From Candidatus Bathyarchaeota archaeon (GTDB lineage: Archaea; Thermoproteota; Bathyarchaeia; Bathyarchaeales; Bathycorpusculaceae), in NCBI GenBank assembly GCA_026014725.1, contig JAOZHV010000052.1, positions 124,001-188,000 on the forward strand: a stretch of DNA of 64,000 nucleotides. The letters run 5' to 3'. A program made the translations under genes and the position numbers. Under the pieces are notes generated by a model. It was not told the DNA's origin and searched no databases. It saw nothing but the letters and a program-made list of their open reading frames with translations. Within the stretch, counting starts at the first letter, position 1. The number at the start of each line of letters is the position of its first letter. This document shows positions 29,112-37,166 of this stretch, one piece after another.

Positions 29112-29273
29112 TTAGAGTACGTCGTGTTCTTCTTTGCAGTGCGTCTCATAGTCTTCGCGGTTATCGTAAACTTCTTGGTCTATGGGGCACTTGAACTTCT
29201 TGTCCTTGGTCATTTCAGGCTCTGGAATAGTTACGCGAGGTGCCGTGCGTTTGAGTTCATCACTTTCAGGCAA
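29112..29273 (-). CDS. small single-zinc-finger protein
   Basis: 53 residues, too short for ordinary calling. On the minus strand GGAGGTGA is followed 4 nt later by TTG 29273 and a frame reading PESDELKRTAPRVTIPEPEM then a C-terminal finger FKCPIDQEVYDNREDYETHC with KEEHDVL to the TAA. Cysteine, a second ligand region and C/H near the end give a C2H2- or C-x-D-like treble. An internal ATG (MTKDKK) is an alternative start. Convergent with the HAD gene. Function unknown; may bind nucleic acid. Confidence 0.6.
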   Translation of the reverse strand: MPESDELKRTAPRVTIPEPEMTKDKKFKCPIDQEVYDNREDYETHCKEEHDVL

Positions 29274-29448
29274 AACTTCACCTCCAAAGGTCTGGTTGCT
29301 AAAACAGACACATAGCTGGTTGAATGATTATTAAGAGTATGTGACTGTACGTAGCCAACAACCAACCGTTAAAAAGCAAGTGCTAAGCCCAAAATTTGCG
29401 TTTAGAAAAAAGAAAAAGAGGGATAACAATTGGAAGGGATTTTACGTT

Positions 29449-36484: not shown

Positions 36485-36538
36485 TAGTATCACTAATAAT
36501 ACATGCTTGTTGGCTGATGTCATACAACCACAATTCCA

Positions 36539-36545
36539 TTTATAG
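36539..36545 (+). promoter_or_regulatory. TATA box for the structured RNA candidate
   Basis: TTTATAG preceded by AATTCCA (BRE-like purine/pyrimidine context). An archaeal start site would be expected about 25 nt downstream, near 36568, about 30 nt before the 5' arm of the long stem at 36599. Confidence 0.4.
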
Positions 36546-36598
36546 TTGGCGAAGAGTTGTTATTTTGCGAGAAATAGCCATCCAAGAGGTACACCCAT

Positions 36599-36711
36599 GC
36601 TTGGCAGACCACCGTTAAACGGGACGCGCGTCGCCCAGACACCCTAAAGAAGGATTAGGGTTACTATTTTTGATTCGCGTTCTCGTCTTAAACTTGGGTG
36701 GTCTGCCAAGC
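36599..36711 (+). ncRNA. candidate structured RNA with 15-bp closing stem
   Basis: GCTTGGCAGACCACC (36599-36613) pairs perfectly with GGTGGTCTGCCAAGC (36697-36711). The enclosed 83 nt contains ACCCTAA/TTAGGGT (36641-36647 with 36655-36661, 7-nt loop) and a GC-rich CCGT/ACGG or GACG/CGTC hairpin near 36611-36632, giving a multi-branch fold. It does not match 5S rRNA, tRNA, SRP or RNase P that I can recognise. It sits in a gap of about 260 nt before the nuclease gene; it could be a free RNA or a leader of that gene. Confidence 0.5.
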
Positions 36712-36824
36712 CTACTTTTGGTTACAGCAGTTGCATATATGTTTAGTTGGTTTTTTCTATAGAATTTATAAGGGTTAGCTGCAATCATAATGCTGGGAAG
36801 CTAACGTTGAGTTATAAGGCAAAC

Positions 36825-37166
36825 ATGCATCCGAAGGTCAGCAAGGCAGAAATCGAAATATTCAAAGCCCTAAGCGTTGCTGGATTAACCAATGGCATGG
36901 TAACCCAAAAACCCATCATCCTGAAAACCACTATCCCTGACTTTTGCTGGATAAACAAGAAGAAAATCGTCTATATAGATGGACTTCCAGTTCATTCCAG
37001 CGATAAACAGCAACAGCGGGATGCCGAGATTTTTGATCTCTTGGAGGCTCAAGGCTGGGATGTGCTTAGGATTCCGTATGAGCCGCCTTTAACCGAGCAA
37101 GGTTTGCAAGAGATAGTTTTGACGATAAAACGTTTTTTGAACATTGACGAGGAAGACATTGAGTAA
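36825..37166 (+). CDS. VSR/DUF559-like endonuclease-fold protein
   Basis: 113 residues from ATG 36825 (frame open from 36747; TTG 36807 also possible). KVSKAEIEIFKAL then TTIPDFCWINKKKIVYIDG and RDAEIFDLLEAQGWDVLRIPY match the very-short-patch-repair endonuclease fold: a metal-binding Asp in PDF, a second acid in YIDG, and the helix plus strand W-x-V-L-R-I. Lysines replace some usual residues. It precedes top6B by 250 nt on the same strand, suggesting a DNA-related role. Activity not proven. Confidence 0.65.
   Translation: MHPKVSKAEIEIFKALSVAGLTNGMVTQKPIILKTTIPDFCWINKKKIVYIDGLPVHSSDKQQQRDAEIFDLLEAQGWDVLRIPYEPPLTEQGLQEIVLTIKRFLNIDEEDIE

Follow-up and report, generated by a model that had tools for sequence, protein, structure and literature searches.

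A noncoding RNA family of uncultured Bathyarchaeia, probably stress-linked, with its type A members beside a VSR-like nuclease gene

Methanosarcina mazei sRNA154 is reportedly an archaeal small RNA under dedicated transcriptional control, and differs from the RNA described here in lineage and signal. The excerpted text of PMC5892119 describes archaeal regulatory RNAs as poorly charted. It also deals with stress and starvation small RNAs of Haloferax volcanii, the subject of PMC6560208 too. These are archaeal, intergenic, and linked to stress or starvation, a link that is probable in the present case; what defines the Bathyarchaeia family is its covarying long hairpin together with a common promoter element.

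A bacterial comparison is offered by LhrC1-5 of Listeria monocytogenes (PMC4132741, in excerpt), with which no homology is claimed. These RNAs are multicopy and under one stress-linked control, much as the paralogs here have a common promoter element; they also carry CU-rich motifs in loops and single strands, and their UCCC motifs bind mRNA. In our family, an unpaired UCCC is present in 25 of the 40 members outside type A/g3 and in none of the 24 type A/g3 members; the LhrC mode therefore suits the other types better. Counted anywhere in the sequence, UCCC occurs in 31 of those 40 members (20.9 expected from shuffles) and in 6 of the 24 (10.3 expected). A further difference from LhrC is that the stress control here is predicted.

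Here, we describe an element in a 64,000-nucleotide stretch of archaeal DNA (the window). The region 36567-36725 is a member of a noncoding RNA family found in uncultured Bathyarchaeia and unlisted in Rfam; an incomplete literature search turned up no publication describing one in Bathyarchaeia. The order promoter, 5' segment, hairpin, and U-rich tail holds in 20 aligned loci, and the features in the window are as follows.

36509..36533, + strand: upstream promoter element GTTG-N-CAACCACAA, of a kind common to other members and some KGG genes
36539..36544, + strand: TATA box TTTATA, about 28 nt upstream of the conserved RNA 5' end
36567..36725, + strand: noncoding RNA gene, type A member; extent as matched by the R2 model (109.5 bits)
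36567..36597, + strand: 5' segment GCGAGAAATAGCCATCCAAGAGGTACACCCA, 31 nt, with a 23-nt core conserved in the loci alignment
36599..36613, + strand: 5' arm of basal stem P1 (inverted repeat, covariation)
36614..36633, + strand: 5' arms of the stacked helices above P1, approximate (predicted fold, covariation)
36642..36660, + strand: apical hairpin CCCTAA...TTAGGG (predicted fold)
36667..36671, + strand: U-run flanking the apical region on its 3' side; 24 of 24 type A/g3 members have UUUU in this part
36674..36696, + strand: 3' arms of the stacked helices, approximate (predicted fold, covariation)
36697..36711, + strand: 3' arm of basal stem P1 (inverted repeat, covariation)
36712..36725, + strand: 3' tail CTACTTTTGGTTAC; UUUU within the last 20 nt in 24 of 24 type A/g3 members
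36765..36771, + strand: TATA-like box TTTATAA of the nuclease gene, apart from the RNA promoter (sequence)
36807..37166, + strand: DUF559 (VSR-like) protein, 119 aa, TTG start (MSYKANMHPKVS...), the constant downstream neighbour of type A

The sequence-only reading of this DNA had proposed a structured RNA at 36599-36711, built on a perfect 15-bp stem beyond chance and taking a multi-branch shape. An inverted-repeat scan bears out the stem (36599-36613 with 36697-36711, enclosing 83 nt) and finds no other perfect inverted repeat of at least 15 bp with a loop of up to 150 nt within the window; as a chance control, 20 order-1 Markov sequences contained none. The predicted fold of 36580-36730 reaches -60.3 kcal/mol (z = -5.5), a value equalled by 0 of 200 shuffles. 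The multi-branch shape has to be given up, the prediction being one long imperfect hairpin with P1 at its base and the 7-bp CCCTAA/TTAGGG element at its tip. The extent was right for the stem, but the conserved unit is longer, at about 36567-36725.

Conserved pairing, on which the proposal had been staked, is present as compensatory changes in 20 relatives and in the paralogous family. The type A test covered 22 pairs in 20 sequences, in an alignment not fitted to the P1 model, though the tested structure was derived from that same alignment. Here, 94.3% of cells are paired and 15 pairs have changed on both sides; none of five measures was reached by any of 500 shuffles. In a 65-row family alignment, fitted to the P1 model so that its counts lean towards P1, the stem is 93.7% paired and two-sided changes are seen in 10 of 12 pairs, values that none of 500 shuffles reached. 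Slid controls of both alignments gave at most 55.4% of cells paired. One of the 65 rows, the antisense match L014 (minus strand), was kept in this count and then removed to leave the 64 members of the family. Over those 64 rows, P1 holds 80 G-U pairs versus 13 A-C mismatches, so selection has acted on one RNA strand, the + strand. The element acts as RNA on the + strand.

No gathering-score match to Rfam falls at the element, in agreement with the earlier impression that it belongs to no standard archaeal RNA class. Across the window, Rfam 15 returned two tRNAs only, neither of them here; between 36500 and 36830 at E <=10 there were two minus-strand matches that fell far short of the cut-off (E 0.37 and 5.8), and a search of 20 loci, 19 of them with R2 members, gave one unrelated tRNA only. 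Archaeal RNase P RNA (RF00373) was rejected, the genome's copy lying at C26:307618 (E 4.6e-53) and the element not being among the four matches, as was archaeal SRP RNA (RF01857), whose sole match is at C59:186875 (E 5.6e-34). Archaeal box C/D sRNAs have a box C, RUGAUGA, near the 5' end; none of the 64 members contains this motif at any position, and the class was rejected. Archaeal H/ACA sRNAs have an ACA box near the 3' end; ACA stands 2-4 nt before the end of the R2 match, which may differ from the true 3' end, in 0 of 64 members, and in the window it lies just past that end. A peptide-coding reading was also rejected because relatives do not preserve the ATG at 36597.

Beyond type A, a model named R1 gave weaker matches with a common hairpin plan and different 5' segments. 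The broader model R2 (E <=0.05) matches 22 of 32 genus genomes, with one to five matches each, of which a small number run antisense to a member. At E <=0.001, 31 of 256 Bathyarchaeia genomes are positive: 22 of genus g1, two of g3, and six of g16, all in one taxonomic family, plus G135, which belongs to another family of the same order, was absent from model building, and has both hairpin and promoter box. Type B paralogs are found in g16, where a single genome often has several of them; in G008, G009, and G029, a type C and a type D copy are arranged as a convergent pair. In eight loci, mostly of type C, the RNA adjoins a divergent ParB-like gene, with a ParB domain match for one.

In its own genome, the window's member is a single blastn copy. 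A type C paralog occurs there at L166 4710-4851 (G000:C26:248709-248850), flanked by a divergent ParB-like gene and a gene that by eye looks like DnaG. A possible third member, at L184 1601-1690 (G000:C26, near 172300), has the promoter element and a weak R2 match (14.8 bits, E 0.079).

At the DNA level, 21 of the 32 genus genomes match, and the best-conserved part is upstream of the stem; positions 36560-36605 (46 nt, mostly upstream of the stem) are identical in G026. Of 20 genus loci, 19 carry the 23-nt core of the 5' segment, TAGCCATCCAAGAGGTACACCCA, unaltered, and the remaining one has a single change. Positions 36567-36598 are partly unpaired in the predicted ensemble (mean 0.65), and the CCAAGAG of the 5' segment is predicted to pair with the tail. 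Members outside type A/g3 have a U-run near the tip in 36 of 40 cases and in the tail in 33 of 40. The tail motif CTTTTAGTTAC, or a close form, is tandemly repeated downstream of the RNA in L016, L018, and L020. Synteny with Topo VI was considered and rejected, the type A core being absent, at up to four mismatches, from 70 named Topo VI loci, several of them short.

The TATA box that had been noted at 36539 is indeed there (TTTATA, 36539-36544) and is exact in 16 of 20 relatives' loci, while the CARYCACAA box ahead of it is kept in 20 of 20. Upstream CARYCACA is found in 49 of the 64 members. Exact and one-mismatch counts are 34 and 36 of 38 training-related rows, which include type A loci outside alignment A5; 15 and 22 of 26 test rows (13 and 20 of 24 without L175:2733, which was in the training alignment, and L130, close to training locus L173); and 1.5% and 10.9% of random windows. 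In the window's own genome, the pattern GTTGN{7,13}CARYCACAW gives 26 matches, or 24 distinct ones after collapsing two overlapping pairs, versus 14 in a reversed control that was not collapsed, so about half of these sites may have arisen by chance. Where a TATA-like stretch accompanies the site, the genes that follow encode KGG (PF10685), Fasciclin, DUF326, HTH_45, and small zinc-finger-like proteins; a YHS gene and a TFS-like gene are further off, at 366 and 205 nt. Some matches are intragenic, and others precede genes without an evident tie to stress, for instance one that looks dehydrogenase-like by eye. One small protein, of 53 aa, is encoded in the window itself at 29112-29273 (-), with the same promoter element at 29339-29359 (-); it has no Pfam match, but a C2H2-like zinc-finger pattern can be made out by eye. 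A second, of 55 aa with a weak C2H2 match (E 0.03), lies behind the element in L187.

Among 30 fetched KGG loci, 13 contain the element, at 11 distinct sites that are each ahead of a KGG ORF, and 17 have none; the reversed-control pattern has 0 matches in 178 kb, both strands counted. Across the 32 genus genomes, KGG occurs in 21 and the RNA in 22: both are present in 21, neither in 10, and G015 has the RNA but no KGG. Genomes with neither are on the whole smaller, some of them incomplete; lineage or lifestyle could therefore be a confounder, and the co-occurrence may reflect lineage or genome size. For KGG, the "stress" role is taken from its Pfam name, and PMC12904285 urges caution in naming archaeal proteins of this sort without tests. 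Since the promoter element also stands before KGG-type genes, the RNA is probably made under stress, and its promoter sequence marks it as probably a stress-response RNA. In L234 and L236, RNA members lie upstream of an orthologous gene, which in L234 is Hsp20 (E 3.1e-24), 538 nt downstream.

When the complement of the 5' segment was sought in the 32 genomes (at most three mismatches, wobble allowed), 145 matches were found versus 58 for the reversed control, 22 of them being the RNA itself; much of the excess falls in G026, with 24 matches (one the RNA) and 5 in the control. The zero-mismatch sites, 22 in 21 genomes, are all the RNA itself, and a near-full-length conserved complement was thus rejected in the 32 genus genomes. 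Eleven sites of recurring strings were checked, and no gene-start position recurs among them from one genome to another; they lie inside ORFs, mostly antisense, or where no ORF is called. Pairing with the start of the DUF559 mRNA (-15.9 versus -15.1 kcal/mol for shuffles) was dismissed, as was pairing of the 5' region with rRNA, in which the best run is 21 versus 19-26 in 10 shuffles, for positions 1-1300 of the LSU model only and no SSU. The idea that the element targets itself found no support.

The reading we prefer, with a probability of about 0.58, is a free-standing, stress-regulated RNA gene of about 159 nt, which acts in trans and belongs to a new paralogous family in Bathyarchaeia. 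That the RNA is new, structured, and possibly free had already been suggested, and this is strengthened by the lack of an Rfam class, the covariation, the strand asymmetry, its own promoter, and the paralogs at unrelated loci. Under stress, the RNA would be made from the GTTG-N-CARYCACAW promoter and TATA box, and the long hairpin would serve as a conserved scaffold. Its contact surfaces might be the 5' segment, the U-runs, and, in other types, the pyrimidine-rich apical loop. Acting in trans on other RNAs, it could use short base pairing helped by an RNA-binding protein, for example, an Sm-like one, with the translation of some mRNAs dampened as the putative outcome. Its mode of action in trans may be either short-seed pairing or protein binding. 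The fuller picture of lineage-specific paralogous stress RNAs with type-specific 5' segments, a common scaffold, joint switching-on by one dedicated promoter element, and a type A tied to the nuclease is more tentative, and we rate it somewhat below even odds.

The neighbouring nuclease suggests two other explanations. The RNA could be a cis-acting leader, an attenuator or riboswitch-like, controlling the DUF559 gene, as the sequence-only reading had considered, for DUF559 is the nearest downstream ORF of at least 80 aa, on the same strand, in 24 of 24 type A/g3 loci while the genes upstream vary. Of the Lon/nuclease setting proposed earlier, the nuclease is thus constant, but Lon, upstream here, is not. 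The gene probably starts with the TTG at 36807, given the conservation of YK and of the in-frame residues that precede the ATG. A separate TATA-like box lies 38-46 nt ahead of its start in 19 of 20 loci, as against a mean of 7.0 in shuffles. DUF559 is present in 48 of 90 genomes of the taxonomic family, and nine genus genomes (G002, G003, G006, G014, G016, G025, G027, G028, and G031) keep it without a family RNA match. R2 found no RNA in nine DUF559 loci from g16, g30, and RNA-less genus genomes, and the RNA copies found in g16 sit on other contigs or tens of kilobases away; the nuclease gene, therefore, does not need the RNA. Paralogs, too, lie beside unrelated or convergent genes, the nearest downstream ORF of non-A members being on the same strand in 18 cases, on the opposite strand in 21, and lacking in one. 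All of this makes a leader improbable. Even less probable is a module in which the RNA is partner or guide of the VSR-like protein: the constant adjacency, kept by both copies in G010, and a 5' segment near-invariant over 23 nt would suit it, but DUF559 persists in RNA-less genomes, other RNA types occur away from it, and PADLOC models gave the protein no match at E <=0.01. The adjacency of type A and DUF559 may reflect either ancient linkage or a genuine association within this lineage.

By analogy with 6S and CsrB, RNAs that act as protein-sequestering decoys, a stress RNA might instead titrate a protein with no base pairing at all. The long, near-invariant 5' segment, the conserved U-runs, and a target search that yielded no convincing complementary site all speak for such a decoy, yet the 5' segment differs between subfamilies, and different partners fit this better than one decoy target; we consider it unlikely on balance. 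That the element works as DNA, for instance, as a MITE or a replication or termination structure, is scarcely credible: it is a perfect inverted repeat with several related copies in some genomes, but the G-U excess (80 to 13) points to one-strand RNA selection, a promoter box lies upstream, positions are kept across genomes, and blastn finds the window's member once in its own genome.

For Bathyarchaeia, to our knowledge a class without easy genetics, the RNA family brings a covariance model together with synteny and a candidate for a promoter code. If the promoter link is true, it would open the way to a stress regulon of archaea made up of KGG proteins, a Fasciclin protein, small zinc fingers, and RNAs, and such a regulon could be checked in public metatranscriptomes. 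In the more tentative picture, the stress-regulated RNA genes might form one arm, composed of several RNAs, of a general stress response in archaea, type A having an added tie to a VSR-like nuclease.
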